Assembly: GCA_024685385.1 (NCBI GenBank)
Contig: JAIKVV010000099.1
Span: 1 to 46,343 of the forward strand
Direction of reading: 5' to 3'
Length of the DNA: 46,343 nucleotides
DNA from: Saccharofermentans sp.
GTDB lineage: Bacteria > Bacillota > Clostridia > Saccharofermentanales > Saccharofermentanaceae
Shown: positions 11,625 to 36,965 of the stretch, one piece after another
How positions within the stretch are numbered: the stretch's first letter is position 1
How the letters are laid out: every line of letters starts with the position of its first letter
Notes under the pieces: model-generated
Told to the model about the DNA's origin: nothing
Seen by the model: only the letters and a program-made list of their open reading frames with translations
Database searches by the model: none
Program-made: the position numbers and the translations under genes

Positions 11625-11640
11625 GTTAGCACCGGCTAAC
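11625..11640. promoter_or_regulatory. Palindromic operator A (GTTAGC-N4-GCTAAC)
   Basis: GTTAGCaccgGCTAAC, perfect arms, flanked by AA and TT so the symmetry reaches 20 bases. It lies 52 bases before the ABC-pair start codon, just downstream of a possible minus-strand -35 (TTGCTT). It belongs to the recurring set described in the findings. Confidence 0.8.
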
Positions 11641-11657
11641 TTGTGAAGCAATTTTTT

Positions 11658-11674
11658 ACCCGCTCAAAGCGGGT
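11658..11674. other. Small hairpin between operators A and B
   Basis: ACCCGCT (11658-11664) pairs with AGCGGGT (11668-11674) around a three-base loop. On the minus strand it is followed by A residues rather than T, so it is not a standard terminator. It lies in the putative 5' leader of the ABC pair if transcription starts at the distal operator. Confidence 0.5.
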
Positions 11675-11721
11675 CCGGATACAATCTTTATATATTTAAA
11701 GAACTTATGCTTATATCTTTA

Positions 11722-11737
11722 GTTAGCCGTTGCTAAC
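11722..11737. promoter_or_regulatory. Palindromic operator B (GTTAGC-N4-GCTAAC)
   Basis: GTTAGCcgttGCTAAC with perfect arms, 149 bases upstream of the ABC-pair start. An AT-rich stretch follows on the minus strand (TATAAG, then TATATAAAG), so a second, distal promoter is possible. The rest of the 316-base gap 11574-11889 holds operator A, the small hairpin and the gpmA terminator; I see no gene in it. Confidence 0.8.
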
Positions 11738-11820
11738 TTTATCATTACAAAACAACAATGTCAATCTGAATTTATTACGTTTTTCGATTGTGTAAGAAAT
11801 TCATCAATATATACAAAAAG

Positions 11821-11855
11821 CAAGAGCTGCCTCACTTACGGACAAGACAGCTCTT
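11821..11855 (-). terminator. Terminator of the DUF3793-flavodoxin-gpmA operon
   Basis: Arms CAAGAGCTG and CAGCTCTTG at the outer ends of this interval pair over nine bases. On the minus strand the second arm is followed by CTTTTTG, a standard Rho-independent tail. It lies about 35 bases after the gpmA stop. Confidence 0.85.
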
Positions 11856-11889
11856 GAGTGAACAAAGGAGATAGGTAATCTGTGCTTTC

Positions 11890-12636
11890 TTATTTAGCTT
11901 TTCCCTGATTTGCCACGGCATCCATCTTTGCTTTCAATGCATCCTGATCACCTAAATAGTAGTGTCTTATAACATTGAAATCATCATCAAACTCATAAAC
12001 CAGAGGAACAGCCGTGGGGATATTTACTCCTATGATGTCTTCGGATGACATCTTGTCAAAATACTTTACGAGCGCGCGGAGGGAATTGCCGTGTGCTGCG
12101 ATAATGACTCTTTTGCCGGCTTTCATTTCGGGCTTGATCGATTCCTCAAAGTAAGGCACGACACGCTCGATCGTTGTCTCAAGGCTTTCGTTTGCAGGGA
12201 GAAGTGAAGGATCCACGTCTCTATACATTGCCTGTTTGGTTGCGCTCCTCTCATCGGATGCATCCAGTTCGGGAGGTTTGACATCGAAAGACCTTCTCCA
12301 GATCTTTACCTGTTCCTCACCGTACTTCTCTGCAGTCTCGGATTTATTGAGTCCCTGAAGAGCGCCGTAGTGACGTTCGTTGAGTTTCCAGGATTTAATT
12401 ACGGGAAGCCATGCACGGTCCATTTCATCAAGTGCGATATTCAATGTATGGATCGCTCTCTTAAGGTAGGATGTGTAGCATACATCGAAGTCATAACCTT
12501 CTTCCTTCAAGACCTTACCTGCATTTTGGGCTTCTTCTCTTCCCTTCTCGCTCAGATCGACATCCATCCAGCCCGTGAATAAGTTGAGCTTATTCCACTC
12601 GCTTTCTCCGTGTCTTACAAGTACAAGCTTCACCAT
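11890..12636 (-). CDS. gpmA: 2,3-bisphosphoglycerate-dependent phosphoglycerate mutase
   Basis: This 248-residue protein interconverts 3- and 2-phosphoglycerate in glycolysis. It has the phosphohistidine motif [10 protein letters not shown] at residues 5-14, the [11 protein letters not shown] segment and the second catalytic His in [12 protein letters not shown], all typical of cofactor-dependent mutases at the usual length. This enzyme class needs no metal, unlike the manganese-dependent alternative GpmI. It is the third gene of an operon with DUF3793 and flavodoxin (12-base gap, GAGGTG ribosome site) under operator C, and the next glycolytic enzyme, enolase, is divergent. That arrangement suggests its expression is tied to metal status. 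Confidence 0.93.
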
Positions 12637-12647
12637 CTGATATCACC

Positions 12648-13070
12648 TCATACCAATGCTGCGCCGAGCGCCTTGCAGGCTGCAGAAGCCTCATCATCGG
12701 GAGCCTCGTTTGCCGTTACTGATTCAGTTGCAAGAACTGCACCTGCTGTCTTACATCTGTCTTCCCAGTCTCTCATCCACTGGCCGTCACCCCAGCCGTA
12801 GGAACCGAAAAGAGCTACCTTCTTGCCGCTTAAAGCTGATTCTACAGCCGTGAACATGGGATCGAATTCGGATTCTTCCAATACTTCGGCACCCATTGCC
12901 GGACAGCCGAATGCGATCGCATCAAATTCGGATACTTTCGATGCATCAAATCCGTCACATGTAAGTACGGTTGCTTCACCGCCTGCGGCGACGATTCCTG
13001 CTTCGACTTCCTTGGCCATAGCCTCGGTATTGCCGGTTCCGCTCCAATATACAACTGCTACTTTACTCAT
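12648..13070 (-). CDS. Flavodoxin
   Basis: A 140-residue short-chain flavodoxin. The FMN phosphate-binding loop WSGTGNTEAMA is at residues 9-19; the FMN-ring loops fall around FGCPAMGAE and FGSYGWGDGQW, which includes the usual aromatic residues. Flavodoxins replace ferredoxin as low-potential electron carriers, classically when iron is short. The gene follows DUF3793 by 35 bases and precedes gpmA by 11, with a GAGG site before its ATG. The operon's upstream GTTAGC palindrome fits derepression under iron limitation. Confidence 0.93.
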   Translation of the reverse strand: MSKVAVVYWSGTGNTEAMAKEVEAGIVAAGGEATVLTCDGFDASKVSEFDAIAFGCPAMGAEVLEESEFDPMFTAVESALSGKKVALFGSYGWGDGQWMRDWEDRCKTAGAVLATESVTANEAPDDEASAACKALGAALV

Positions 13071-13105
13071 AATGAAAACCTCGTATTTCTATAAATTAAC
13101 AGCAC

Positions 13106-13657
13106 TCAGACAACAAGTTGTTCAAGTGTTCTGCCCTCTTTTAACATGCGCCCGTATTCTTCGGTGCACTTCTTATATCTTCTGAACGCAAGGCGGGCAC
13201 TGTCGACATCGGAATAAACTTTCCAATAGCCGGTCTCATAGAATCCGCCTTGGGGATTTCTGATGAATCCGTCAACATCCAGGGGCGGGTAACCCAGGAA
13301 AAGGCCTATTTCGTGTGGAAATGTAGGTGAGGTATTAAGTCTTCTTACCAGATCGGCAAGACATCTCTCAGAACTTATTACCGCATATCCAAAACGTTTA
13401 AGGATAGAAACTGCCACAGGATCCTTAAGGTCTTTATCGAGCATGGCCGGTCGGTAAATGTAAGTAAGAACATAGTCGTCACAAACTTTCAGCGGTAAGA
13501 TACGAATCCCTTTGCTGTTGACGGATCTGTTGAACATCAGAATATCCTTTCGGAAGTCATCACGAGAAGAAGGGTGCAAGGTGAAGAGACTTCCTGTCTT
13601 GATCCCCGCCAAAGTCGGTGCGCAAAATCTTACTAGCAGATCTTCGGGCAATTTCAT
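13106..13657 (-). CDS. DUF3793 family protein
   Basis: A 183-residue soluble protein. The segment FPHEIGLFLGYPPLDVDGFI near residue 115 is the hallmark of the DUF3793 family, which is common in Clostridia and often found next to flavodoxin genes. No catalytic function has been established to my knowledge. It opens the operon with flavodoxin and gpmA. AAAGGAG lies five bases from the ATG, and operator C begins 13 bases upstream, so transcription must start within or just before the operator. The Cys residues (positions 12, 59 and 99, among others) could be redox or metal ligands, but that is speculation. Confidence 0.85.
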   Translation of the reverse strand: MKLPEDLLVRFCAPTLAGIKTGSLFTLHPSSRDDFRKDILMFNRSVNSKGIRILPLKVCDDYVLTYIYRPAMLDKDLKDPVAVSILKRFGYAVISSERCLADLVRRLNTSPTFPHEIGLFLGYPPLDVDGFIRNPQGGFYETGYWKVYSDVDSARLAFRRYKKCTEEYGRMLKEGRTLEQLVV

Positions 13658-13669
13658 TCTCCTTTCTTA

Positions 13670-13685
13670 GTTAGCCACTGCTAAC
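13670..13685. promoter_or_regulatory. Palindromic operator C (GTTAGC-N4-GCTAAC)
   Basis: GTTAGCcactGCTAAC with perfect arms, immediately before the DUF3793-flavodoxin-gpmA operon. On the minus strand TTGACA lies 17 bases upstream of TACAGT, and that -10 candidate overlaps the operator edge, so a bound regulator would block the polymerase. Confidence 0.85.
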
Positions 13686-13755
13686 TGTAACACTTATTAT
13701 ATTCTTTGTCAATCAACATTGGATATCTAACCATAAACCTATGAAAAACAATGGT

Positions 13756-13785: not shown

Positions 13786-13793
13786 CTTCCTTG

Positions 13794-13809
13794 GTTAGCA
13801 ATCGCTAAC
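13794..13809. promoter_or_regulatory. Palindromic operator D (GTTAGC-N4-GCTAAC)
   Basis: GTTAGCaatcGCTAAC, perfect arms, eight bases after the eno -10 box. This position, about +2 to +18, is typical for a repressor. Confidence 0.85.
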
Positions 13810-13884: not shown

Positions 13885-15207
<1,323 letters not shown>

Positions 15208-15301: not shown

Positions 15302-15667
15302 TTACTTTCCGTTATTTTTCCTGTGTTTCTTCAGAGCCTTGAAACTCTTGTCACTGATCACATGTTCTATACGGCATGCATCCTCTTCGGCAGTCTTCAT
15401 GTCGACTCCGAGTTCCATGAGGATCTCACTGATGACGACATGTCTCTCGTAGATCGTCTTGGCGATCTTAGAGCCGGAAGGAGTAAGAGTTATATATCCG
15501 TTGTCATCTATCAGGATATATTCGCCTTTTTTTAGTATTCCCATGGCCCTGCTGACGCTTGCCTTGGAATAACCCAGATAATTGGCAACATCCAAAGAGC
15601 GTACCGGTTTTCCCTTCTTGGAAAGGACCAGAATGGATTCAAGATACATTTCACCGGATTCCTGCAT
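15302..15667 (-). CDS. DtxR/MntR-family metal-dependent regulator (copy 1)
   Basis: A 121-residue protein starting MQESGEMYLESILVLSKKG, the typical beginning of iron/manganese-dependent repressors of the DtxR family. A winged helix with recognition segment YSKASVSRAMGIL follows, and then the dimerisation part (LMELGVDMKTAEEDACRIEHVIS) with His, Glu, Asp and Cys candidates for metal binding. It lacks the C-terminal SH3-like domain, as short members do. GGAGG lies nine bases before the ATG. It shares clear similarity with the second copy at 36982. It lies among the operator-bearing genes, but no GTTAGC palindrome is visible in its own upstream region, so it may sense another signal or be constitutive. 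Confidence 0.9.
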   Translation of the reverse strand: MQESGEMYLESILVLSKKGKPVRSLDVANYLGYSKASVSRAMGILKKGEYILIDDNGYITLTPSGSKIAKTIYERHVVISEILMELGVDMKTAEEDACRIEHVISDKSFKALKKHRKNNGK

Positions 15668-15741: not shown

Positions 15742-16170
15742 TATGATCCGTGTTTGGGTATCCGGGGAATGCATCTGTTGACTCTTTCCTTATATTCAAG
15801 GTATTCATCACCGTAAAGATCGGCAAGCCAGATCTCTTCCGTATTCTTAAGAACAACCGTAAGGATAATCCAGTTGATGAATATGAAAGGCAATACCATG
15901 TAGTTGTGCCAGATAAAACTTATTCCCGGTAATGCTCTTATCCATGTCGGAACGGAGAGCCCCTATATACCATACTGCCGCTCCGGATAAGATCATGAGA
16001 ACAGCTAAGATACGGAATACCCATACCCATATGCCTTCAAGCCTTGCAAAAGAGAATACCCTAGAAGCCAATATTATCCCCGCGAGAGCAACGATCCCTA
16101 TCCCGGAGATAAGATAGGGGCCTATTCCGAACAAAGGCAGTTTCTGCCCTTCTTTTACGTAATTTTTCAT
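15742..16170 (-). pseudogene. Isoprenylcysteine methyltransferase-like membrane protein, internally deleted
   Basis: The first 70-odd codons encode an N-terminal membrane segment of the ICMT-like methyltransferase family (GPYLISGIGIVALAGI, then WYIGALRSDMDKSITGNK). At about 15935 the frame should continue into the SAM-binding GIYxxVRNPxY region, but this is missing. The family's C-terminus instead resumes in another frame: PFIFINWIILTVVLKNTEE, then LYGDEYLEYKERVNRCIP, ending at 15742. I estimate roughly 30 codons lost plus a frameshift, so the enzyme is dead. It has a minus-strand promoter (TATAAT at 16195-16200) whose -35 overlaps operator E, so the intact gene was part of the same regulon. 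Confidence 0.85.
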
Positions 16171-16208: not shown

Positions 16209-16224
16209 GTTAGCAACGGCTAAC
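16209..16224. promoter_or_regulatory. Palindromic operator E (GTTAGC-N4-GCTAAC)
   Basis: GTTAGCaacgGCTAAC with perfect arms. On the minus strand it contains the -35 (TTAGCC, 16218-16223) of the pseudogene promoter, 17 bases from TATAAT. It is 18 bases upstream of the divergent TetR promoter's -35. Confidence 0.8.
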
Positions 16225-16242: not shown

Positions 16243-16271
16243 TTGACATTAAGGATCCTCAGGTGTATAAA
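16243..16271 (+). promoter_or_regulatory. Consensus promoter of TetR gene
   Basis: TTGACA at 16243-16248, spacer 17 bases, TATAAA at 16266-16271. It is followed at once by a palindrome, the expected design for an autoregulated TetR gene. Confidence 0.85.
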
Positions 16272-16295
16272 TTACACCGTAATATTACGCTGTAA
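16272..16295. promoter_or_regulatory. Probable TetR operator
   Basis: A 24-base palindrome directly after the -10 box: left arm TTACAcCGTAAT and right arm ATTACGcTGTAA, with a single mismatched pair. It differs wholly from the GTTAGC sites, so I assign it to the adjacent TetR-family protein. Confidence 0.8.
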
Positions 16296-16333
16296 TATTG
16301 AAAAACAATCATTCTGTCAAAGGTGGGAATAAG

Positions 16334-16951
16334 ATGTCTTACGATTATAACCAGACACATGAAAACATCTTGAAGAGCGCACGCAAACAATTTGCGGAGA
16401 AAGGATTCCGCGATGCCTCCATAAGGAAGATCTGCAGCGACGCAGGCGTTACTAACGGCGCCTTCTATTCCCATTTCAAGAGCAAGGAAGATCTGTTAGG
16501 CAGCATCATCAGCCCCCGCATCAAAGGCCTGACAGATCTTTACTCCTCTGAAAAAGAAGTTTTCCTGGACATAAAGAGCCCGGATGACATCCTGAATGCT
16601 TTCAAAAAGTCTTATTCATCTTATTCGAAAGCCATTATCTATGTATGCGGGTACAGAGAAGAATTTCTCCTTCTCATCGATTCCTGCGAAGGAAGCGAAT
16701 ATGACGGTTTTCTTGATATGCTCATTGATGAGGAAACCGAAAATACGATGGAATTCTTAAGCCGCAGCAAAAGATTCATCAAAAATCCCGAAAACGTTAC
16801 GGAAAACATAGCAAGGCTCGGTGCATCTTTTATGATCGAGACGATCTTTGACGGTCTCAAGAACGGCTTATCCGCCGATGAGATCATTAAGGAAACTGCT
16901 GTAGTAAGTGAATACTGCATTGCCGGTTACAGGCACATGCTCGGAATCTGA
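16334..16951 (+). CDS. TetR/AcrR-family regulator of the ECF/ABC operon
   Basis: The ATG at 16334 follows AAAGGTGGG and gives a 205-residue protein. The N-terminal helix-turn-helix (ILKSARKQFAEKGFRDASI, then ICSDAGVTNGAFYSHFKSK) is typical of TetR repressors; the rest is an all-helical ligand domain of no recognisable subgroup. A consensus promoter with a near-perfect 24-base palindrome lies immediately upstream, so it probably represses itself. A hairpin terminator separates it from the ECF/ABC operon, which carries its own GTTAGC operator; the transporter may answer both to metal and to this protein's ligand. Confidence 0.9.
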   Translation: MSYDYNQTHENILKSARKQFAEKGFRDASIRKICSDAGVTNGAFYSHFKSKEDLLGSIISPRIKGLTDLYSSEKEVFLDIKSPDDILNAFKKSYSSYSKAIIYVCGYREEFLLLIDSCEGSEYDGFLDMLIDEETENTMEFLSRSKRFIKNPENVTENIARLGASFMIETIFDGLKNGLSADEIIKETAVVSEYCIAGYRHMLGI

Positions 16952-16993: not shown

Positions 16994-17009
16994 GTTAGCC
17001 ATCGCTAAC
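16994..17009. promoter_or_regulatory. Palindromic operator F (GTTAGC-N4-GCTAAC)
   Basis: GTTAGCcatcGCTAAC with perfect arms, four bases after a TATATT -10 candidate (16984-16989) and 19 bases before the S-component ATG. It is the operator of the ECF/ABC operon. Confidence 0.85.
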
Positions 17010-17028: not shown

Positions 17029-17619
17029 ATGAATAACAACAGTAACAGGCTCAAGGGCAAAGACCTTATCACCGTCGGTATCTACACCGCTCTATATACC
17101 GTCTGCGTATTTATCACAGGCATGTTCAACGCCATTCCTATCTTTTACCCGATATATATGTTCGTCGGACCCCTGTTAATGGGCATCCCAATGGCACTTT
17201 ACTATCTTAAGATAGAAAAGTTCGGCATGCTCACGATAAGCGGGATCATCATGGCCTTCTTCTGGTATATAGCAGGTTACACCTGGATCAGCGTTGCCTG
17301 CATCGTACCTGCTTCCCTTCTTGCCGACATCTTCCTTAAAGTTATCGGATATAAGAAATTCGGAGCGATCATTACAAGTTACATCTTCTTCTCCATGGGC
17401 ATTCTCGCAGGTCCCGCTAATCTCTGGTTTGCAGGAGCAGGTTACTGGGACGGCATAAGGGAATCCATGGGCGAACAGTATGCAAGCCAGCTTGCCATGT
17501 ATATGCCGGTATGGTTCCTCCCCATCGCAGTCGTACTCATCGCCGTCGGCGCCGTATGCGGAGCTCTGGTCGGCAGAAAAATGCTGAACAAGCACTTTAA
17601 GAAAGCCGGTATAGTCTGA
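17029..17619 (+). CDS. MptD-family (Trep_Strep) ECF transporter S-component
   Basis: A 196-residue membrane protein with about five or six helices. The start RLKGKDLITVGIYTALYTVC and the internal segments match the MptD/TIGR02185 family of putative substrate-binding S-components of energy-coupling factor transporters. Such proteins bind a small ligand in the membrane and are driven by the T-component and ATPases. AGGAGG lies before the ATG, and the stop overlaps the next start (TGATG). The ligand of this family is not established to my knowledge. The operon context (metal-type operator, paired YbtPQ-like half-transporters) suggests a metal-related ligand such as a metallophore or tetrapyrrole. 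Confidence 0.85.
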   Translation: MNNNSNRLKGKDLITVGIYTALYTVCVFITGMFNAIPIFYPIYMFVGPLLMGIPMALYYLKIEKFGMLTISGIIMAFFWYIAGYTWISVACIVPASLLADIFLKVIGYKKFGAIITSYIFFSMGILAGPANLWFAGAGYWDGIRESMGEQYASQLAMYMPVWFLPIAVVLIAVGAVCGALVGRKMLNKHFKKAGIV

Positions 17620-18350
17620 TGGACCGATATATCGAAAGGAAAAAGTTCAGGCTGGATCCGAGAACGAAACTGTTCCTGATCATTGTTGTAGCAACACTCG
17701 AACTCGTAAATTCAAGCATCTGGTTCACCCTTGCCGTGGGAACCATCCCTTTCCTGCTCTTCCTGAGCAACAGACAGTTTCTCGGCGCATTCAAATATTA
17801 CGGATTATTCCTGATAGCGGCATTCATCCATGTCCACCGCGTGAATATCGAAGTCAACATGTTTCTCAATATGATCATAGTGCTTCTCGGAGGATTGATA
17901 CTTAAGCTCTCCCCTGCTTTTACGACCGGTGATTACATCATCGAATCGACCAATGTCAGTGAAGTGATCGCCGCATTAAACAAGATGAAGGTCAGCCGCA
18001 AGATAATAATCCCGATGTCGGTCCTGTTCAGATTCCTTCCTACTATAAAGCAGGAAAACAGAGCCATACACGATGCCGCTGCCATGCGCGGGATCATAAT
18101 AACCAGGAAAAGATTTTGGGAAAACCCTTTGAGGGCTTTTGAATACAGGATCATTCCGCTCATGATCTCCATAGCCAACACCGGAGAAGATCTTTCTGCT
18201 GCAGCGCTGTCAAAGGGTTTGGATAATCCTAAAAAGCACACAAATTACACTGATGTCAGATTTACGGGCAGAGATCTTTTCGCAGTCCTGTTCGTAACCT
18301 TGTTCCTGGCAGCAGTCTATCTTATAACAACATACTTGAAGGTGAAATAA
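17619..18350 (+). CDS. ECF transporter transmembrane T-component
   Basis: A 243-residue membrane protein beginning DRYIERKKFRLDPRTKLFL, the usual EcfT opening. It has four to five membrane helices and the conserved coupling-helix motifs AAAMRGI and AALSKGL, the two x-R/K-G motifs that contact the ATPases. It transmits ATPase movement to the S-component. It overlaps the S gene by one base and abuts the ATPase gene without a gap, so translation is tightly coupled. This is a dedicated (group I) ECF arrangement because all components are encoded together. Confidence 0.88.
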   Translation: MDRYIERKKFRLDPRTKLFLIIVVATLELVNSSIWFTLAVGTIPFLLFLSNRQFLGAFKYYGLFLIAAFIHVHRVNIEVNMFLNMIIVLLGGLILKLSPAFTTGDYIIESTNVSEVIAALNKMKVSRKIIIPMSVLFRFLPTIKQENRAIHDAAAMRGIIITRKRFWENPLRAFEYRIIPLMISIANTGEDLSAAALSKGLDNPKKHTNYTDVRFTGRDLFAVLFVTLFLAAVYLITTYLKVK

Positions 18351-21300
18351 ATGATCGAACTTAAAAATGTATCTTTCGAATACGATGACGGTCTGGAAAC
18401 CCTGAAAGAACTCGATCTTAACATCCCGACCGGGCAGGTACTGCTGCTCTGCGGCGAATCCGGATGCGGCAAATCCACGCTGATCCGCCTGATCAACGGT
18501 CTCATCCCGAATTACTACAAGGGCAGCCTTAAGGGATGTGTTAAAGTGGACGGACTCGATACTTCAGAAGTTCCTCTGCACGAACTTGCTGAGCACGTAT
18601 CTTCTGTCTTCCAGAATCCGAAAACACAGTTTTATAATGTCGATTCGACGGAAGAGATGGTATTCGGTCTCGAAAATCAGGGTGTCAGCCGCGAAGAGAT
18701 GAAAGAAAGGCTTGACGCCACGGTAAAAAAGCTCCGCCTTGAAGACCTTATGGGCAGAAACCTCTTCAAGATGTCCGGAGGCGAAAAGCAGAAAGTCGCC
18801 TGTGCCTGCGCAGACACCACGGGAACAGACATCATAGTCCTTGACGAGCCTTCTTCCAATCTTGATCTTCATACCATAAATGAACTTGCAAGGATAATAA
18901 AGATCTGGAAGGATCAGGGAAAGACAGTCGTCATCGCAGAACACAGACTCTACTATGTCCTCCCTATCGCCGACAGGGTCTTATACATGAGAAACGGTGC
19001 AGTCGAGATGGATGTAACTCCGGGCGAACTCCTGGCATTGGGAAAAGAAAAGATGTCTGAAATGGGCCTTCGGAGCACAGATATCCGCAATATCCCGCTT
19101 AAAGGCGAAAAGCCTCTTAACAACGAGAAGATCGTTCTTGCTAATTTCCATTATGTTTATCCCGGAAGGCTGCAGGAATCACTCGATGTGCCTTATCTGA
19201 AAGTCTCCCGCAATGCCGTGATCGGGATCGTAGGAGATAACGGCGCAGGCAAATCCACTTTCGCAAGAAACCTTTGCGGGCTCGAAAGACATGCCAGCGG
19301 AAACATCGAATACGAAGGATCGATCTACGCCAGACGCAGAAGACTCAAGAGCGCTTTCATGGTAATGCAGGACGTGGGTCATCAGCTCTTTACCGATGAT
19401 GTCATCGGGGAGATGAACTTCAGTCTCGAAAAAGAATATGAAGGATCCGAAGCCATGATAGATTCCGTTCTTACCGAGCTCAATCTTATCGAAAAAAAGG
19501 ACCGCCACCCTCATTCCCTTTCAGGCGGAGAAAAACAGAGAGTCGCTATCGGAAGTGCCGTTGTCTCTAACAGGGACATCATCGTTTTCGATGAGCCGAC
19601 AAGCGGACTTGATTACCGCAACATGAAAGCGGTATCGGCCTTGATCAGGAAACTCAAGGCAAAAGGCAAAACAATATTCATCGTTACACATGATCCTGAG
19701 CTCATCGCGGAATGCTGTGACGAGCTTATCTACATGCAGGAAGGTAAAGTCCTGGAATACGGCAAGCTCAACAAAGAAATGTATGACAGATGGCTTTACA
19801 GGACTGCCACGAGCAAAGAAAAGCGAGTTCTTCCTACCGACGAGAAACTGACGCCATTAAAGCGCATGTGGCAGCTTGCGTATAAAGAGCATCCCAAGCT
19901 TATCCTGTCAATAATCCTGGCAGTCATCGGCGTATTGGGAAATGCTCTGCCCTATATCGCGGCAGCAAGGATCCTGTCAGCTCTCCTTGCAGGGATCACG
20001 GATCCTGCATTCTATTTCAGCTGGTGTGTATTCGGAGCCATGGGCTTCGTAATCAAGCCGGTCTTCTATTCACTGGGGCTTGCGGTCAGCCATAAGGCGA
20101 CTTTCAATACACTTGCCGACATCAGAAAAGCCATGTTTGATAAACTCCCGAGAATGTCTCTCGGAACGATCATAGATTCATCCTCGGGAAAGCTTAAACA
20201 GATAATAGTGGATGAGGTTGAGAGCATGGAAAGACCTCTTGCTCACATGATCCCCGAGATGACTGCAAACATCCTTGGTGCCGCAAGCATATGGGCTTAC
20301 CTTATGTATGTCGACTGGCGCATGGGTCTCATAGCCCTGATAACCATTCCTCTGGGCCTGATCTTTGCGGTCTTCATCCTCATCGGATATGCAACGGATT
20401 ACGAAAAGAGCGTAAGGACCGTTCAGGACATGAACAGATCCATCGTCGAATATATCCACGGGATCGAAGTCATCAAAGCATATAACCAGGGCGACGGGTC
20501 TTTCGTAAAGTTCAAGAAGAGAGTATTGGCTACAGCCCAGAATTATTATGACTGGATGAAGAGGATCCAGTACAAGTGGTCCCTTACCTATGCAATAGCT
20601 CCCGCAACATTGATCACGGTCCTTCCCATAGGCTGGCTGATGTATATCAACGGAAGTCTGGATGCAGGAACCTTCATGACTTCGATCATGCTCTCCATGT
20701 GCATCGTAGGACCGGTCATGGAAGCGATCAGTTTTTCCGATACCTTGACCAAAGTCAAAACAACAGTCGGAACCGTTGATGAGATATTGACAGGACCCGA
20801 ACAGATCCACAGCGAAGAAAATAAGGTCATTAAAGATCACTCAATCTCCATGACCGACGTTTCCTATTCTTACCACAAAGGCGTAGAAGTCCTTCATGAC
20901 ATTAATCTCATCATCCCGGAAAACACAAAGACGGCTCTTGTCGGGCCTTCAGGAAGCGGAAAATCCACGGTGGCCAAGCTCATAGCAGGTTTCTGGGATG
21001 TGGAGGACGGAACGCTTGCAATGGGCGGGACCGATTATAAAAAGATCCCGCTGAAGCAGCTCTATGATGAGATCGCTTTTGTCTCACAGGATATATACCT
21101 TTTCGATGACACGGTATTGAACAATATCCGCATGGGCAGGATGTCCGCAACGGATGAGGAAGTCATTGCCGCGGCAGAGGCGTCAGGATGCAAAGAACTC
21201 ATAGAGAACCTGGAAGAAGGATACGATACCATCGTCGGTCAGGGCGGAACGCATCTTTCAGGCGGAGAGAAACAGCGCATAGCGATAGCCAGAGCTATGA

Positions 21301-25540: not shown

Positions 25541-25550
25541 AATTTATTCC

Positions 25551-26680: not shown

Positions 26681-26711
26681 TTTCAATTCTCCGAGTAAAG
26701 ATCATTTTTCA

Positions 26712-26727
26712 GTTAGCCTTTGCTAAC
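26712..26727. promoter_or_regulatory. Palindromic operator H (GTTAGC-N4-GCTAAC)
   Basis: On the plus strand GTTAGCctttGCTAAC, perfect arms. It starts nine bases after the minus-strand -10 box, at about +3 of the methyltransferase transcript. Confidence 0.85.
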
Positions 26728-29812: not shown

Positions 29813-32800
29813 TCACTCCCTGTTCTTTAATATTTCTGCGGGCTTTATCTTCCTGATCCTGTTCGTAAGAACGAGATTGATAAGAAGATAAAGACCTATT
29901 ATGACCGCGAATATCACAAGATACATCTCAGGTGAATAATCCGGCCTTATTCCTACGCCTACATTACTTACGAGATATCTCGGATAGATATAATCCATGA
30001 TGAGTTTGGAGAGCGGTATCACTATTAAGGCGCCTATGGCGACAATGTAGAAATTACCGTCTATATACATCTTCCTTACTTCCCTGTTTCTGAATCCGAA
30101 TATCTTGACGAGGGATATGTTGAATGCCGACCTGTCGATCATCATCTTGATCATAAGGTACATGACAACGACAAAAACGACCGCGGAAGCCACAGACATC
30201 GTGATTATCATTGACTGCATCAGATCTACATAGATACCCGCAGATCTTGCGATCTCGCTTTTCGAAACTACTGAATATAACCGTCCGCTGTCTATGTTGA
30301 GTTCATGATCCGAGAAGACTGTATTGAAATAGTCATCATCCTCATCGAAAAGCTCCCGGCATCTGTCTATATCCATGAATATCATCAGAGATGCAGAATA
30401 ATCCGTTATCCTGCTGACCCTGAAAGCATAAAGACGGTCGCCATTCTCTCCTTTCAAGGTAAATTCGTCACCTGTTGAAAGGTTATACTTGTTGGCAACA
30501 GCCGAGCTTACGACAACGTCTGTACCATTTTCGGGAAGATCGCCCGTATCGAAGAAAGGATTTTCTTTAGTTATGCCCATCACGGTAACATCAAAGCTGT
30601 AGCCGTAAATGTCTTTCTTGAGACCTTCAGCCACTGCTGCATATCCTCCTTCGGGGACTTCCTCTGCAGGATATTTGTAATTGTACATATATTCGTAGTG
30701 AGTCTGGCTTACATAATAATCCTTGACTCTTTGGCAGTAGACATATGTATTGAGGGCCATGAAAGCTACAAGAAGAGCCATGAACATTCCCAAGACGACA
30801 GTAAGTCCTGCTCTGATCTCCCTTACCATCTGTCTGATCCTGAACATGCTGAGGAACTTGAGTCCCTTAAGCTTCAGTTCTTTGCCGCGGACAATTTTCT
30901 GTTCATTACGCAGGAGCGACAAAGGGGATCTCTTAAGTTTCTTGCGAATGACAAGCATATTAACGGCGAATGCGGTTACCGGCGGAATCACAAGCCCGTA
31001 GATAATGATGAAAGGCGTGACCTTGATCTCAAGGGCAGGCATCGAATAATACAAAAGAGAATCCATTAGCTGCGCTTCTATCCCTGCAGGAGTAAGCAGC
31101 GCGGCTGTCGTTCCTATGATACCCGATATGAATGTCACGATGACCGGAACAGCTACATAGCTTATTATGAGAGTCCGCCTCCTGACGCCCATTGAATAAA
31201 GAGCTCCGATAACGGAACTTTCCTGATCGATCATATGCACAATGAATACCGATATGACATAAGCAAAGAGCATTACGAGCAGTATTCCGAATATGATGCT
31301 CGCAGAATAATTGATCTTTACATCATCAGCTGCTGAATCGATCCTTGGATTCTCTTTATAGTCAAGGAACAAAATGAGATTCGACGTCTTTATGTTAAAA
31401 ACCTCATCTACCAGATCATCTGCTTTCTCTGCAAACTCGGATACACCGTCGGAAAGTTCCTTAGCTCCTTTTGCAAGTTCTTCCGATCCGTCAAGGATCT
31501 TTCCGGACCCGTCATAGAGCTCGTCGGCTCCGTCAGTCAGATCAGGAAGATTCTTCTTAAACTTTTTTGTCCCGTCATGTAAGGCTTTGGCACCGTCGTT
31601 AAGAACGGTGCTGTTCCTGCTCAAGGCACCCAGTCCGTCAGACAACTGTACAGAGCCGGCAGCCAGAGCCTTTGACCCCTTACAGAGCCCGTCGATACCT
31701 CCTTCCAGTTGATCAAAGATCGTTACAAGACCTGATAATCTCTTGTCAAGATCTTTGGCAGCCTTGGACAATGCAGGATCTGAACTCTTTGCCATCTTTC
31801 CAACATAACCGGAGAAGATCTTAAGTCCGCCGGAATAGTCCGAGGCCGCTTTTTGAAATTTTTCCGAACCGTCTTTAAGATCCTTTGCCCCCTTCACGAG
31901 TTCGGAAGCTCCTCCTGCTGCCCGATCGACTCCGGCAGTATAGGCCCTGACACCCTTCTCCAATGCTGCGGCTCCCTTATCGAGGGCTTCTATACCGTCC
32001 GCAAGTTCAGACACGGCATCGTGGAATTCAGTCATTCCTCCATGAAAATCCTTCACCCCGTCTGATAATTCCTTGGCGCCGTCAGAAAGTTCCTTTGCCC
32101 CGTCAGAAAGTTCATCGATACCTTCAAGGAGTTCATCCTTGCGGCCAGTCATCCTGTCCCAGTATTCACGGAAATATTCATCATCAACATCATTGACATC
32201 AAATTCGATGTCTTCCAGCATGTTCTTAAGTTCATCTTCTTCAATGGTGCCGTTAAGGAGATACGAATAATAGTACTCTTCGGAAGATAAAAAGGCGCCG
32301 GAAAGATAGAGGGCATCATAGGAATCAGGCGTTACGAATAGCAATCCGAAATACCTTGAATCCACGACCGAATCGGTAACTTTCTTAATGACCGTGTTGT
32401 AATCCGGAACGGCTCCGACACCGCAGATCCTAAATTCCCTGTCTCCGATCTTTACTTTATCATTTATGTTAATGCCGTTGACTTCCGAAAAGCGCCTTTC
32501 CAGAACAGCTTCATCATCAGATTGCGGAAGTCTTCCTTCGATCAGAGATATCCTGTTTATGTTCTCTCTGAGCTTAAATACCCTCAGCACCTGTTCTTTA
32601 TCCAGTGGATAATCGGCATAGAACATCTCCTCGATGGTAACGCCCTTGGCTCTTATCCTCTCAATTTCTTCGCTTCTCAAGGGTACAAAGACCGAGAATT
32701 CACCGTCTTCTCTTACGAGTTCCCTGTCCCTTAATTCCGTATAATCGATGACTGTGACAGCGGCACCCATGAGACTTGTAACGATGAATATCGAAAAGAT

Positions 32801-32881
32801 TATGAGGAGCGAGAGAGCCAGATATCTTGCCCAGCCTGCTTTGAGATCACGGAAGGCTCTCTTTAACAGTATCCTGCCCAT
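29813..32881 (-). CDS. FtsX/MacB-type ABC permease with long DG-repeat stalk
   Basis: A 1022-residue permease: a first membrane helix at 20-45, a long extracytoplasmic region, three helices at about 525-650, a second outside domain and three C-terminal helices, the duplicated FtsX layout. The first outside region contains, at about 255-492, many 7-residue repeats of the type ELSDGAK or LxDGxxx, predicted to form a long helical rod. This is seen in large Firmicutes permeases and YhgE/Pip-like proteins. It starts one base after the ATPase gene's stop. It probably exports or extracts a lipid or peptide, or signals across the envelope. Confidence 0.88.
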   Translation of the reverse strand: MGRILLKRAFRDLKAGWARYLALSLLIIFSIFIVTSLMGAAVTVIDYTELRDRELVREDGEFSVFVPLRSEEIERIRAKGVTIEEMFYADYPLDKEQVLRVFKLRENINRISLIEGRLPQSDDEAVLERRFSEVNGININDKVKIGDREFRICGVGAVPDYNTVIKKVTDSVVDSRYFGLLFVTPDSYDALYLSGAFLSSEEYYYSYLLNGTIEEDELKNMLEDIEFDVNDVDDEYFREYWDRMTGRKDELLEGIDELSDGAKELSDGAKELSDGVKDFHGGMTEFHDAVSELADGIEALDKGAAALEKGVRAYTAGVDRAAGGASELVKGAKDLKDGSEKFQKAASDYSGGLKIFSGYVGKMAKSSDPALSKAAKDLDKRLSGLVTIFDQLEGGIDGLCKGSKALAAGSVQLSDGLGALSRNSTVLNDGAKALHDGTKKFKKNLPDLTDGADELYDGSGKILDGSEELAKGAKELSDGVSEFAEKADDLVDEVFNIKTSNLILFLDYKENPRIDSAADDVKINYSASIIFGILLVMLFAYVISVFIVHMIDQESSVIGALYSMGVRRRTLIISYVAVPVIVTFISGIIGTTAALLTPAGIEAQLMDSLLYYSMPALEIKVTPFIIIYGLVIPPVTAFAVNMLVIRKKLKRSPLSLLRNEQKIVRGKELKLKGLKFLSMFRIRQMVREIRAGLTVVLGMFMALLVAFMALNTYVYCQRVKDYYVSQTHYEYMYNYKYPAEEVPEGGYAAVAEGLKKDIYGYSFDVTVMGITKENPFFDTGDLPENGTDVVVSSAVANKYNLSTGDEFTLKGENGDRLYAFRVSRITDYSASLMIFMDIDRCRELFDEDDDYFNTVFSDHELNIDSGRLYSVVSKSEIARSAGIYVDLMQSMIITMSVASAVVFVVVMYLMIKMMIDRSAFNISLVKIFGFRNREVRKMYIDGNFYIVAIGALIVIPLSKLIMDYIYPRYLVSNVGVGIRPDYSPEMYLVIFAVIIGLYLLINLVLTNRIRKIKPAEILKNRE

Positions 32882-32882
32882 G

Positions 32883-33593
32883 TCAGAGATCCTCCAGTTC
32901 CGATGCGGGGATCTTCTGTTCGTTACGGTAATCTTTATAGATCTCTCCGTCCTTAAGATATATTATGTGGTCCACCATGTTCTTTATCGAATTGTTGTGG
33001 GTCACTATCAGCATCGTAGTACCGTACTGTCTGTTTATCTTTTCGAGAAGAACAAGTATATCCCTCGATGTCTTGGAATCCAAAGCTCCAGTCGGCTCAT
33101 CACAGAGCAAGACCTTCGGGTTCTTGACGAGAGCCCTTGCGATAGCGCAGCGCTGCTGCTGACCGCCCGAAAGCTGGGAAGGGAACTTATGCTGATGCTC
33201 CGTAAGTCCCAGGACTTTTATGAGCTCATCGATATCCAAAGGGTCCTTCGTAAGGTATTCGCAGATCCGTATATTCTCCCTGACGGTAAGATTCGGAACC
33301 AGATTATAGAACTGAAAGATAAAGCCCAGATTATCTCTTCTGTAATCGGATAGTTTTTCTCCTTTTAGGCCGTCAACATGCTTTCCTGCGACCGTGACAG
33401 TTCCGGAATCGATGTCATCCAGACCGCCTATACAGTTAAGCAGCGTAGACTTACCTGATCCTGATGTTCCCTGAATGACGCAAAGTTCGCCTTTGGAGAC
33501 ATCCATGTTCACGCCTTTTAAGACCTGAGCGTAGGAACCGCCTTCACCATAGGATTTATGAAGATCCCTGACTTCTAAATAACTCTCTGACAT
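32883..33593 (-). CDS. MacB/LolD-type ABC transporter ATPase
   Basis: The ATG at 33593, with GAGAGG upstream, gives a 236-residue ATPase: GTSGSGKSTLLN (Walker A), FIFQFYNLVPNLTVREN (Q-loop), LSGGQQQRCAIARAL (signature), LLCDEPTGALD (Walker B) and IVTHN (H-loop). These are the standard features of MacB/LolD/FtsE ATPases that drive FtsX-type permeases. It is followed by the permease gene with a one-base gap. A terminator hairpin of the feo operon lies only 27 bases upstream of the start and no separate promoter is evident, so some transcription may come from feo read-through. Confidence 0.93.
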   Translation of the reverse strand: MSESYLEVRDLHKSYGEGGSYAQVLKGVNMDVSKGELCVIQGTSGSGKSTLLNCIGGLDDIDSGTVTVAGKHVDGLKGEKLSDYRRDNLGFIFQFYNLVPNLTVRENIRICEYLTKDPLDIDELIKVLGLTEHQHKFPSQLSGGQQQRCAIARALVKNPKVLLCDEPTGALDSKTSRDILVLLEKINRQYGTTMLIVTHNNSIKNMVDHIIYLKDGEIYKDYRNEQKIPASELEDL

Positions 33594-33619
33594 AAAACCT
33601 CTCAAATAAAACTCCAAAA

Positions 33620-33656: not shown

Positions 33657-33663
33657 GAATTAA

Positions 33664-33884: not shown

Positions 33885-36323
33885 TTATTTCTCCTTAACG
33901 ACGCCCGTGTACTTCTTGGCAGGTCTTACAACCAGGAAGATGAGTCCAGCAAGGACTAAGACTGCAAAGATCAGTCCGATGACATTTGCGGCACCGGTGA
34001 AGAGGAGACCGAACTGGTAAACGATCAGGGAGAGTGCATAAGCGAATACACACTGATATCCGATCGCAAACCATGTCCACTTCGCTGAGTTCATCTCACG
34101 CTTGATGGCACCGATGGCAGCAAAGCAAGGTGCGCAGAGGAGGTTGAAGATCAGGAATGAGAAACCTGCAAGTGCGGAAAGTCCTTCGAAATCCAATACA
34201 CCGAATACGCCTACGACTTCTTCCTTTGCAACAAGACCCATGATCGTTGCGATGGTTGCCTTGATGTTTGCAAAGCCCAGAGGAGCGAAGATCCAGCTGA
34301 TGGCATTACCGATTATGCCGAGCACGGAAGATTCAAGTTCCATATCAGGATCGAATCCGAATCCTGCTTCCGTATTACCCAGGACGGATCCGAGCCAGAT
34401 AACGATGGAAGAGATAAGGATTATGGTTCCTGCCTTCTTAATGAAGGACCAGCCTCTCTCCCACATGGACCTTAAGAGGTTGCCGATCGTAGGAAGGTGA
34501 TATGCAGGCAGCTCCATGACGAAGGGAGCGGGGTCTCCTGCGAACATCTTAGTCTTCTTGAGAAGGATACCGGAAACGATGACTGCCGCAACTCCGATGA
34601 AATATGCGACGGGAGCAACCCAAGCTCCGTTACCGAGTGTGTGACGGAAAAGAGCTGATGTGATAAGGGCAATAATGGGAAGCTTTGCTCCGCAAGGAAT
34701 GAAGGTCGTTGTCATGATGGTCATCCTGCGGTCGCGCTGACTCTCGATGGTCCTCGATGCCATGATGCCCGGAACACCGCAGCCCGAAGATACGAGCATG
34801 GGGATGAATGATTTACCGGAAAGACCGAACCTTCTGAAGATACGGTCGAGTACGAAAGCGACTCTTGCCATGTATCCGCAGGATTCAAGGAATGCAAGGA
34901 GGAAGAAGAGAACGAGCATCTGGGGAACGAAGCCCAATACTGCACCGACGCCTCCGATGATACCGTCTACTACGAGACCTGTTACGAACTCGTTTGCGCC
35001 GATCTTCTCAAGACCTTTGCTTACGAGATCAGGGATGCTGGGTACGAAGACAGCGCCTTCTGCTTCATCCATGCCGGGCGCCGTGAACTCGCCGTTCTCA
35101 TCCAGTGCACCGGATTCGGTAAGGGCTCCCGCCAGATCGAATCCGTTCTCATCGAACTCGTCTGCATAGAAACCGAAATCTTCTTCGAATGCGCCGAAAT
35201 CAGCATCTTCAAAGTCACCCTGAAGATTCTCGGCACCCGTTATGTCAGCATCTGCTGCCTTATCGATGATCGCTTTGACGTCATCCGTAAATACGGACTC
35301 GCCTGCCCATTCATCAACCATCTCATCGTACTTGGCTCTGCCGATACCAAACAGATACCAGCCGTCACCGAAGATCTGATCGTTGGTGAAATCCGTTGCG
35401 GTTGCGCCGAAGCCCGTCATCGCGATGGAATATACCAGATACATGATGATCGCGAAGATCGGGAGAGCCAGGATCCTGTTCGTCAGGACCTTATCGATCT
35501 TGTCGGATACGGATGCCTTAACGGCTGACTTCTTCTTGTAGCAGCTCTTGATGATGGATCCGATGTAGATATATCTCTCATTCGTGATGATGGATTCTGC
35601 ATCGTCATCAAGTTCCTTTTCTGCTGCAGCGATGTCCTTTTCGATATGGTCGATCTTCTCTTTGGAAAGACCCAGTTTTTCGATTACTTTCTCGTCTCTT
35701 TCGAAAAGCTTGATCGCATACCATCTCTGCTTGTCTTCATTCATGTCATGGAGACAATATTCTTCGATGTGAGCAAGAGCATGCTCAACGGGACCGGAGA
35801 ATGTATGAGGAGGAAGAGTCTTTGTCTCTTCTGCTGCCTTGATCGCGGCTTCAGCCGCCTCCATAATGCCCGTGCCCTTGAGAGCCGAGATGGCAACTGC
35901 CTTGCAGCCCATCTGCTGCGAGAGCATGTCGAGATCGATCTTGTCGCCGTTCTTGTTAACAAGGTCGATCATGTTTACTGCCATTACTACGGGGATACCG
36001 AGTTCGGTGAGCTGTGTCGTAAGATAGAGGTTACGCTCCAGGTTCATGCCGTCAACGATGTTGAGGATGACATCCGGATTCTCGTCGATGAGATAGTTAC
36101 GTGCTACGACTTCCTCCAGTGTATAGGGAGAAAGCGAATAGATACCGGGAAGGTCAGTGATCGTAACACCGTCATGCTTCTTGAGCTTGCCTTCCTTCTT
36201 TTCTACAGTTACGCCCGGCCAGTTGCCGACGAACTGATTGGAACCCGTAAGCGCGTTAAAGAGGGTCGTCTTACCGCTGTTCGGGTTACCCGCTAATGCG
36301 ATCTTGATCTTTGAATCTGCCAT
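33885..36323 (-). CDS. feoB: Ferrous iron transporter FeoB
   Basis: The 812-residue protein imports Fe(II). The N-terminal G domain has G1 GNPNSGKTT (12-20), the Thr-containing G2 loop PGVTVEKKEG, G3 DLPG (57-60), G4 NMID (117-120) and a G5-like SALKG. It is followed by a helical domain and a polytopic membrane part with the Gate motifs, including SSGCGVPGIMASRTIE. Between the first and second membrane segments, at about 331-425, is a strongly acidic insert of roughly 90 residues (about 28 Asp/Glu against two Lys), making the protein longer than most FeoBs. AAAGGAG precedes the ATG. It is cotranscribed with two feoA genes under operators I-K. Confidence 0.97.
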   Translation of the reverse strand: MADSKIKIALAGNPNSGKTTLFNALTGSNQFVGNWPGVTVEKKEGKLKKHDGVTITDLPGIYSLSPYTLEEVVARNYLIDENPDVILNIVDGMNLERNLYLTTQLTELGIPVVMAVNMIDLVNKNGDKIDLDMLSQQMGCKAVAISALKGTGIMEAAEAAIKAAEETKTLPPHTFSGPVEHALAHIEEYCLHDMNEDKQRWYAIKLFERDEKVIEKLGLSKEKIDHIEKDIAAAEKELDDDAESIITNERYIYIGSIIKSCYKKKSAVKASVSDKIDKVLTNRILALPIFAIIMYLVYSIAMTGFGATATDFTNDQIFGDGWYLFGIGRAKYDEMVDEWAGESVFTDDVKAIIDKAADADITGAENLQGDFEDADFGAFEEDFGFYADEFDENGFDLAGALTESGALDENGEFTAPGMDEAEGAVFVPSIPDLVSKGLEKIGANEFVTGLVVDGIIGGVGAVLGFVPQMLVLFFLLAFLESCGYMARVAFVLDRIFRRFGLSGKSFIPMLVSSGCGVPGIMASRTIESQRDRRMTIMTTTFIPCGAKLPIIALITSALFRHTLGNGAWVAPVAYFIGVAAVIVSGILLKKTKMFAGDPAPFVMELPAYHLPTIGNLLRSMWERGWSFIKKAGTIILISSIVIWLGSVLGNTEAGFGFDPDMELESSVLGIIGNAISWIFAPLGFANIKATIATIMGLVAKEEVVGVFGVLDFEGLSALAGFSFLIFNLLCAPCFAAIGAIKREMNSAKWTWFAIGYQCVFAYALSLIVYQFGLLFTGAANVIGLIFAVLVLAGLIFLVVRPAKKYTGVVKEK

Positions 36324-36337
36324 TATCTTATGCTCCT

Positions 36338-36559
36338 TTACTCAACTTCTACCATCTCGGCATCGTTCTTACGAAGCGAGAGCTCATAGCCTCTTACCGT
36401 GATCTCTACGGGATCGCCCAGAGGGGCTACCTTACGGACATAGATCTCTACACCCTTGGTGATTCCCATGTCCATGATCCTGCGCTTTACCGCGCCTTCT
36501 CCGTTGAGCTTGACGACTTTGACAGTCTCACCCACTTTTACTTCTCGCAATGTCTTCAC
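36338..36559 (-). CDS. feoA: FeoA-domain protein
   Basis: A 73-residue SH3-like FeoA protein, starting with GTG after GGAGGAG. The pattern KRRIMDMGITKGVEIYVRKVAPLGDPVEI and GYELSLRKNDA is the standard FeoA signature. FeoA assists FeoB, presumably by contact with its cytoplasmic domain. It is the second of two feoA genes, 14 bases before feoB, and is the more typical of the two. Confidence 0.95.
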   Translation of the reverse strand: MKTLREVKVGETVKVVKLNGEGAVKRRIMDMGITKGVEIYVRKVAPLGDPVEITVRGYELSLRKNDAEMVEVE

Positions 36560-36570
36560 TTTTGCTCCTC

Positions 36571-36783
36571 CTATATCATTATTTTTTTTGCTAATTCACT
36601 GCTGACAGCTACACGGCTTTCCTTAACCTTCACTATCAGATTGTCGCCGATCGAGTTAACTACGCTGATCTCTCCTCCGACCGTAAATCCCATATCCTCA
36701 AGGTGTTTCTTTATATCGGGACTTCCGCCGATCTTCTTTATGATCTGGATCTGCCCTATGTCCGCATAAACGAGAGGCATCAT
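36571..36783 (-). CDS. FeoA-domain protein, first and divergent copy
   Basis: A 70-residue FeoA-like protein. KKHLEDMGFTVGGEISVVNSI and VKVKESRVAVSSELAKKI match the fold, but the usual GDP turn before the last strands is replaced by GDN. Tandem, unequal feoA genes before feoB are common in Clostridia and may make a hetero-oligomer. AAAGGAG lies before two adjacent ATG codons. It is the first gene of the operon; operator I lies 18 bases upstream in the leader, and J and K follow at the promoter. Confidence 0.92.
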   Translation of the reverse strand: MMPLVYADIGQIQIIKKIGGSPDIKKHLEDMGFTVGGEISVVNSIGDNLIVKVKESRVAVSSELAKKIMI

Positions 36784-36801
36784 AAACTCACTCCTTTTAT
36801 A

Positions 36802-36817
36802 GTTAGCACGTGCTAAC
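36802..36817. promoter_or_regulatory. Palindromic operator I (perfect)
   Basis: GTTAGCACGTGCTAAC is fully self-complementary, the only copy with a symmetric centre. It lies in the feo leader, 18 bases before the first ATG. Confidence 0.85.
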
Positions 36818-36836
36818 TCTTTGAATAAATAAAATA

Positions 36837-36852
36837 GTTAGTCTTCGCTAAC
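36837..36852. promoter_or_regulatory. Palindromic operator J, one mismatch
   Basis: On the plus strand GTTAGTcttcGCTAAC. It starts eight bases after the feo -10 box on the minus strand, at about +2, the same position as at eno and the methyltransferase operon. Confidence 0.75.
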
Positions 36853-36860
36853 CGTTTACA

Positions 36861-36889
36861 AGTATAGTAAGCAATTGCTAACGAGTCAA
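36861..36889 (-). promoter_or_regulatory. feo promoter with operator K in the spacer
   Basis: On the minus strand TTGACT (36884-36889) and TATACT (36861-36866) are separated by 17 bases. Operator K (36867-36882; GTAAGCaattGCTAAC on the plus strand, one mismatch) fills this spacer almost exactly, so binding must exclude RNA polymerase. Confidence 0.85.
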
Positions 36890-36922
36890 GCCGTTTTTTA
36901 TAGGAAATCACTGATTTTTCTA

Positions 36923-36951
36923 TTGAATTGTTTTCGTTTTTTTGGTAAGTT
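36923..36951 (+). promoter_or_regulatory. Promoter of the feo-linked DtxR gene
   Basis: TTGAAT (36923-36928), 17-base spacer rich in T, TAAGTT (36946-36951). The -10 lies inside palindrome L, which argues for autoregulation. Confidence 0.65.
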
Positions 36952-36965
36952 AGTGCTAACTTACC
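36944..36965. promoter_or_regulatory. Palindrome L, DtxR-box-like
   Basis: Ten-base arms GGTAAGTTAG and CTAACTTACC around TG. The spacing and arms resemble the classic DtxR/IdeR box (arms TTAGGTTAG and CTAACCTAA) more than the GTTAGC-N4-GCTAAC sites do. It is 16 bases before the regulator's start codon. Confidence 0.8.

Follow-up and report, generated by a model that had tools for sequence, protein, structure and literature searches.

A GTTAGC-N4-GCTAAC palindrome as the predicted operator of an iron-responsive DtxR regulon in Saccharofermentans, with a DtxR paralog altered at its metal site

The window analysed here is a whole stretch of 46,343 nucleotides from Saccharofermentans sp. (assembly GCA_024685385.1, contig JAIKVV010000099.1, forward strand), and our subject is the palindrome GTTAGC-N4-GCTAAC, hereafter called the box, that recurs in it together with two genes for proteins of the DtxR family. 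Close named homologs belong to Saccharofermentans. A preliminary description made from the letters alone had listed eleven starts of the box, and our rescan matched each of these positions exactly; eight boxes are exact copies and three carry one mismatch.

The first two exact boxes (11625-11640 and 11722-11737) precede a pair of genes on the minus strand for half transporters of the ATP-binding cassette (ABC) exporter fold (9792-11573 and 8063-9799, i.e. 8063-11573 together; Pfam). The former lies 52 bp before the pair, and the latter overlaps the -10-like hexamer of its promoter (TTGACA-17-TAAAGT, minus strand). The next two boxes, both exact, share an intergenic region. The one at 13670-13685, with arms that are invariant in five species, stands before a minus-strand operon (11890-13657) of a DUF3793 gene (13106-13657), a flavodoxin gene (12648-13070) and gpmA, the gene of a 2,3-bisphosphoglycerate (2,3-BPG)-dependent phosphoglycerate mutase (11890-12636). 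The one at 13794-13809 begins 8 nt past the -10 element of the enolase gene eno (TTGACA-18-TATATT; gene at 13906-15207, plus strand), and here box and promoter are both kept in five species. Beyond eno lies the gene of the first DtxR-family protein, DtxR_B (15302-15667, minus strand; PF01325 and PF02742), the likely iron sensor. An exact box at 16209-16224 precedes a short open reading frame (ORF) of 107 aa (15847-16170, minus strand) that has no Pfam match and is probably a remnant; two relatives, G002 and G004, have a boxed homolog of 168 aa. Upstream of the neighbouring TetR-type gene (16298-16951), the stretch 16243-16300 holds a TTGACA promoter together with a repeated element that contains GTAATATT and is possibly the TetR protein's own operator.

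An operon of the energy-coupling factor (ECF) type (17029-23320, plus strand; Pfam, NCBIfam) follows an exact box at 16994-17009 and encodes a Trep_Strep/MptD-type S component (17029-17619), a CbiQ-type T component (17619-18350), a double ATPase fused to an ABC half transporter (18351-21578) and a second ABC half transporter whose start is uncertain (21539-23320). The xylose isomerase gene xylA (23501-24826, minus strand; NCBIfam) is preceded by a one-mismatch box (24858-24873) and is boxed in G002 and G004 as well. An exact box at 26712-26727, 9 nt past TTGACA-17-TAATAT, stands before a minus-strand operon (24917-26686) for a methyltransferase (26045-26686), a protein with no Pfam match (25551-26048) and a DUF6796 protein (24917-25540). 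The gene for an HMA-domain protein (29560-29808) and its neighbours, which encode an FtsX-type permease paired with an ABC ATPase (29813-33617), have no box of their own.

The densest cluster is found between the ferrous uptake genes and the gene of the second DtxR-family protein. The feo genes (33885-36783, minus strand) comprise two copies of feoA (36571-36783 and 36338-36559) and feoB (33885-36323); their leader holds an exact box (36802-36817), a one-mismatch box begins 8 nt past their -10 element (36837-36852), and another (36867-36882) forms the spacer between the -35 element TTGACT and the -10 element TATACT. An imperfect box or extended palindrome at 36943-36964 covers the presumed -10 element of the gene for DtxR_A (36982-37353, plus strand; PF01325 and PF02742), the putatively metal-blind paralog. 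The preliminary description had reported a related palindrome at 36944; a palindrome is indeed present, but it is not clearly another class of site, since in an alignment of five relatives it appears as a box with an imperfect left arm. Read as a box it starts at 36945 and has two mismatches.

The boxes are far more numerous than expected by chance: 100 dinucleotide-preserving shuffles of the window gave a mean of 0.03 and a maximum of 1, as opposed to the 11 found. Although 93.3% of the region is coding, none of the 16 bases of any of the 12 sites (the boxes and the related palindrome) falls inside a called gene, as had been claimed. The earlier statement that most sites lie on or just behind a promoter holds for seven of the eleven boxes (11722, 13670, 13794, 16994, 24858, 26712 and 36837), in which a -10-like hexamer, sought with a loose consensus in the direction of the served gene, overlaps the box or ends at most 10 bases before it; the -35 elements are weak at some of them. 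The other four boxes differ: in addition to the spacer box at 36867, the nearest -10-like hexamer to 36802 lies at a distance of 13 nt or else on the opposite strand, and the same scan found none at 11625 and 16209.

A scan of all 113 contigs of the assembly (2,365,517 bases) that allowed one mismatch gave 17 boxes, compared with 3 matches for the backward-read pattern. Sixteen of the 17 are credible; the box at C79:25488, which straddles the stop codon at the end of a reading frame, is probably due to chance and was discounted. Five of the 16 lie outside the window, on four other contigs: two precede a FeoA-FeoB fusion gene, i.e. a second FeoAB (C11), one precedes a second Trep_Strep ECF operon (C90), one another ABC pair (C98), and one, at a contig edge (C24:148), a truncated gene. 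For this last gene a resemblance of the first 37 residues to flavodiiron proteins was followed up and rejected, since neither Pfam nor, up to E = 1, the PDB gave a match. The palindrome regulon thus extends beyond the window, and of the local 25-kb metal-starvation island proposed earlier, the regulon centred on iron uptake survives but not its confinement to one locus.

The box is also widespread in relatives. The exact box occurs in 35 of 59 related genomes and in 81 of a sample of 291 genomes from the class, the exact backward control in 4 and 13, respectively. Of the 114 exact boxes in the 59 relatives, 103 lie within the examined stretches. These stretches, 76 outside the window with 764,405 bases in all, were mostly picked around exact boxes and so show placement, not frequency; they hold 166 boxes with at most one mismatch compared with a single backward control. 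Only 12 of the 166 are inside ORFs of at least 100 aa, and 102 stand next to the start of a gene whose product is homologous to a window protein, namely DUF3793 (15), FeoB, ABC_A and the DtxR_B-like proteins (13 each), FeoA (12 + 3), Eno (11), Trep_Strep (9), TetR (8) and others, where a single box may serve two genes. Among the dtxR loci of named genomes (the best 80 of 580), 49 of 52 feo-linked loci have a box upstream when one mismatch is allowed, as opposed to 7 of the 28 others.

A comparison of the eno-DUF3793 intergenic region across five species shows invariance in 23 of 24 arm columns, as against none of the 8 columns of the N4 spacers and 34 of the remaining 220; the eno promoter TTGACA...TATA is kept as well. 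The two inner boxes of the feo-dtxR_A intergenic region (six sequences) give the same general picture, with 21 of 24 arm columns, 2 of 8 N4 columns and 56 of the other 169 being invariant. Where boxes with at most one mismatch stand in tandem, 20 of the 33 pairs within 80 bp are spaced by 29-30 or 33-36 bp, i.e. by about three helical turns. The flanks are uninformative: no base past the first flanking one exceeds 0.12 bit in the 114 exact boxes, and therefore the box looks like a site for a single dimer.

According to the IdeR papers, a single dimer of Saccharopolyspora erythraea IdeR binds the half site TTAGGNNNNCCTAA, half sites are treated as an exception of unknown function, and their use in other species is left for study (PMC10317159, PMC8464063). 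TTAGC-N4-GCTAA has the geometry of TTAGGNNNNCCTAA, i.e. two facing CTAA repeats with a 4-bp spacer and one dimer, and its flanks carry no signal of a second dimer such as would mark the 19-bp double of TTAGGNNNNCCTAA. Also as in the IdeR system, the boxes lie at the -10 element or the start of iron genes and the ligands of DtxR_B are of the Fe type. The difference lies in the first repeat base, which is G here and C in IdeR (TTAGCNNNNGCTAA for TTAGGNNNNCCTAA), and in the protein: the position of IdeR Gln43 is Arg in the alignment of both window proteins, neither of which has an SH3 domain. According to the same source, the contact of Gln43 with the first repeat base is the only direct hydrogen bond of IdeR to a base, although its authors regard base contacts as dispensable and favour shape readout (PMC10317159). 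We infer that Arg43 is matched to the G of the first repeat base. Moreover, sixteen boxes with half-site geometry form a regulon here.

The nearest described operator is that of EqbA from Streptococcus equi. The report on EqbA proposes a 36-bp palindromic operator of eqbB with the core GTTAGATGTATCTAAC, and states that binding requires the palindrome and responds to Fe2+ and Zn2+, and incompletely to Mn2+ (PMC3672683). The window shares with it a GTTAG-N6-CTAAC core, a DtxR-like protein without SH3 domain and an iron import target of the ABC type, where the comparison with EqbA is one of operator, domains and target. Unlike the boxes, the EqbA palindrome extends further outwards, and EqbA has been described for one siderophore cluster whereas at least nine promoters, including those of feo and of glycolytic genes, are concerned here. 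A third comparison is offered by feo-linked DtxR proteins of Lachnospiraceae, Butyrivibrio, Oscillospiraceae and others (among L186-L261), in which feo adjoins dtxR, boxes lie upstream and the helix is of the SVSRA type, the latter being part of the search pattern by which the named-genome loci were found.

The preliminary description had assigned the boxes to one DtxR-type protein, with either gene as a candidate, and had left the metal as iron or manganese. In fact the genome has exactly two PF01325 proteins, and they are not equivalent. Both DtxR_B and DtxR_A score over the cut-offs of PF01325 and PF02742, which places them in the DtxR family, and both (121 and 123 aa) end after the dimerisation domain, the SH3-like C-terminal domain being absent; they miss the NCBIfam equivalog cut-off for actinobacterial DtxR (39 and 26.8 bits, cut-off 290). 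DtxR_B has all six ligand positions intact (M7, E10, H76, C98, E101 and H102), and the primary site of IdeR/DtxR, with the sulfur ligands Met10 and Cys102 and Glu/His, is found in it at the aligned residues M7, C98, E101 and H102. PMC10317159 takes Met and Cys as the sulfur ligands characteristic of iron sensors, and Asp/Asn together with Glu as characteristic of manganese sensors. Because DtxR_B has Met7 and Cys98, iron is more likely than manganese as its metal, which narrows the earlier choice. MntR of Bacillus subtilis and E. coli has the same two-domain DtxR fold and is the best Foldseek match of the DtxR_A model, but it has Asp/Asn and Glu where DtxR_B has Met and Cys (PMC10317159), and DtxR_B misses the NCBIfam MntR equivalog cut-off (76.9 bits, cut-off 153). 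The relatives also have a second, MntR-like group of DtxR proteins, in which position 7 is Asp and most helices read SVSN or SVST.

The eno-linked DtxR_B is the likely sensor. An Arg43-type DtxR adjoins eno in eight relatives (G004, G005, G011, G020, G023, G025, G032 and G033). Of the 34 same-genus relatives, the exact box is present in 22 of 26 with an Arg43-type DtxR as opposed to 1 of 8 without (Fisher P = 0.0004, uncorrected for kinship; 3 of these 8 are less than 75% complete). The complete genome G001 (100%) has a single PF01325 match, which is of the DtxR_B type (77% identity), and it carries 4 exact boxes and 9 one-mismatch boxes in its fetched stretches; a DtxR_B-type protein alone therefore probably suffices for a boxed regulon. 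In G012, G014, G015, G016, G022 and G024, only non-Arg43 DtxR proteins were found and there is no exact box, but looser palindromes that resemble the box occur at several of the dtxR promoters in these genomes.

DtxR_A has a different metal site. Relative to DtxR_B its substitutions are H76V, C98S, E101V and H102R, so that the IdeR/DtxR site is not found in it; the DNA-reading helix TRPSVSRA is kept. In the orthologs from G004, G008 and G027 the C98 position is N, G and R, and the H102 position is R, whereas E101 is unchanged; all four of these genomes, that of the window included, also hold an intact protein of the DtxR_B line. Among the 120 homologs listed of 219 found, the C-E-H residues are kept in 36, H102R occurs in 79, C98 and H102 are both lost in 75, and the helix (T/S)(R/K)PSVSRA is kept with few exceptions. 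A first DtxR tree comprised 73 of 74 DtxR sequences (one duplicate dropped). In a second tree of 75 rows (20 genome rows and 55 of the 120 homologs, thinned at 93% identity, with the fragment P0240 excluded), the altered rows group in a single clade of 36 rows, of which 35 are altered and 1 is intact, with a support of 100/100 and a stem of 0.49, the alignment being short and the bootstrap rough. The intact member, P0144, has the C-E-H site inside the metal-blind clade by reversal, recombination or early branching. In the named genomes, 4 of the 80 loci are altered, all of them feo-linked and boxed (one named Saccharofermentans, two Clostridia and one Ruminococcaceae; L184 and L185 are probably the same contigs as G008:C5 and G027:C13), whereas feo-linked DtxR elsewhere keep C98 and H102 in 48 of 52 loci.

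Decay is not what the substitution rates suggest. Because dN is 0.11-0.32 while dS runs from 1.17 to saturation (15 pairs, six genes), we conclude from these sequences that the DtxR_A line is under purifying selection. Its structural model (pLDDT 90.6) matches MntR and DtxR with TM scores of up to 0.88 (Foldseek). By its sequence, then, DtxR_A is a member of the DtxR family by descent and not an iron sensor.

Taken together, these observations make it probable that the boxes are operators of an iron-responsive DtxR repressor, most likely DtxR_B, with DtxR_A as a metal-independent member of the circuit; we infer from sequence the pairing of protein and box, iron as the metal, repression and the role of DtxR_A. 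When Fe(II) is plentiful, DtxR_B with bound Fe would sit as a single dimer on each box and block the overlapping promoter; when Fe(II) is scarce it would be released and the boxed genes would rise together. Ferrous uptake (feoAAB, and feoAB on C11) and probable chelate uptake (the Trep_Strep ECF systems and the ABC pairs) would be set free, as would flavodoxin, gpmA, eno and xylA, which would likely spare metal enzymes. DtxR_A, being itself under boxes, would be induced with feo on iron starvation, and in the reading we prefer it would most likely bind the boxes without metal and brake the response, since the helix is kept and the metal site is lost. More tentatively, DtxR_A and its kin may form a subfamily of former sensors turned metal-independent, in which a fixed Arg replaces the cation, operator specificity is kept, and the feo-coinduced protein rebinds half-site boxes as a feedback controller beside the sensor DtxR_B.

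The metabolic genes fit into this scheme to different degrees. Five of the six relatives compared (G001, G002, G004, G011 and G030) share the order DUF3793-flavodoxin-gpmA, which was not seen in the sixth, G018; in G001, xylA directly follows gpmA and therefore belongs to the set. Flavodoxin is a substitute for ferredoxin. The boxes would tie DUF3793 to iron starvation; its AlphaFold model, of middling confidence (pLDDT 78.5), has no PDB match at E <= 0.001. E. coli gpmA is under Fur control, and metal-type phosphoglycerate mutase (iPGM) needs Mn. Two iPGM genes are found in the assembly (G000:C11:14751-15446 and C38:17874-18569), and together with the boxed gpmA they would fit a swap to the metal-free mutase. 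There is also a second enolase gene (G000:C33:14134-15423, 80% identical) with no box on its contig. The swap is kept as a suggestion because eno stays metal-dependent and the extra copies may be contamination.

Several observations weigh against the scheme as a whole or against parts of it. The second enolase and the second iPGM may be due to contamination (2.12%). Enolase is not an obligatory member of the regulon, because it is missing in several relatives and truncated in another: it was not found by protein search and PF00113 in nine genomes, each at least 90% complete (G006, G008, G009, G013, G019, G021, G022, G028 and G029), which reflects either loss or an assembly gap, while 14 of 14 control genomes were positive, and in G027 an enolase fragment (residues 213-433, one stop) lies next to a box and to dtxR_B. 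In six eno-linked proteins related to the sensor (G005, G020, G023, G025, G032 and G033) H76 is replaced by Arg, with C/E/H kept. Four Arg43 genomes (G009, G026, G029 and G033) have no exact box, and in G010 (74% complete) there are three exact boxes, no DtxR by protein search and one weak PF01325 match. G030 (99% complete, 6 exact boxes) has as its one PF01325 match a feo-linked DtxR with an intact metal site that groups with DtxR_A, and on this account the feo-linked line probably once read the boxes as a sensor. Genes activated by IdeR tend to carry several boxes, according to PMC10317159, and the several boxes between feo and dtxR_A could likewise mean activation. The scan was aimed at the present box shape, and other shapes may exist in the regulon. 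Finally, the number of boxes bears no relation to the metal-blind paralog: 11 and 8 exact boxes occur in G002 and G018, which lack the paralog, and only 2 in G008, which has it. The paralog was therefore rejected as an explanation of larger regulons.

The main rival to the braking role makes DtxR_A an anti-repressor, which would pair with subunits of DtxR_B, or sit on the boxes without blocking RNA polymerase, and so deepen derepression. The lost metal site with helix and fold kept, and the placement under the same boxes as feo, would suit this role too, and we regard it as possible though unlikely; against it, the near-fixed Arg beside a mostly kept Glu (Val in DtxR_A) would suit a cation built into the protein no less than a sensor that is dead. 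It is improbable, in turn, that DtxR_A is the iron sensor and master regulator and DtxR_B a manganese regulator. The feo linkage and the box array of DtxR_A, the ligands kept in most feo-linked DtxR elsewhere and the sole feo-linked DtxR of G030 speak for such an assignment, but V, S, V and R occupy four of the six ligand positions of DtxR_A, DtxR_B keeps the Fe-type Met and Cys, and G001 is boxed with a DtxR_B-type protein only.

Still less probable is another reader of the boxes, such as the TetR-type protein (16298) or a FUR-family protein encoded on C65. Both are present in the genome, and TetR homologs adjoin boxes in some relatives (8 mentions for the 166 boxes); however, the arms and spacing of the box are common to published operators of the DtxR family, boxes precede several dtxR genes, and box presence tracks the Arg43-type DtxR. 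A reading of the palindromes as attenuators formed by RNA hairpins, or as a small mobile repeat that has been copied, which a 6-bp stem with a 4-base loop in eleven copies within 25 kb might suggest, is hardly credible, given that the arm letters are fixed rather than co-varying in both footprints, that boxes sit across -10 regions or in the space from a -35 to a -10 element, and that the flanks share nothing, which means that there is no transposed unit.

A DtxR iron regulon is, as a kind, already known. New, as far as we have searched, are a regulon built on the half-site box with its G/Arg43 pairing, the occurrence of this box across feo-dtxR loci, and the metal-blind clade; in a search confined to a library of open-access papers, neither this box nor a metal-independent DtxR paralog was reported, and DUF3793 was not mentioned in connection with iron. 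The IdeR papers leave open whether half sites are used elsewhere and for what purpose (PMC10317159, PMC8464063), and a regulon of sixteen boxes with that geometry bears on this question, with a putatively matched change of the first repeat base from C to G and of the contact residue from Gln43 to Arg. DtxR_A would show, in a natural setting, how a metal sensor can lose its metal site and yet stay under selection inside its circuit of origin. The predicted link to iron starvation would give DUF3793, a family of unknown function, a physiological setting, and the box may serve as a handle for reading iron regulons in poorly studied Clostridia.

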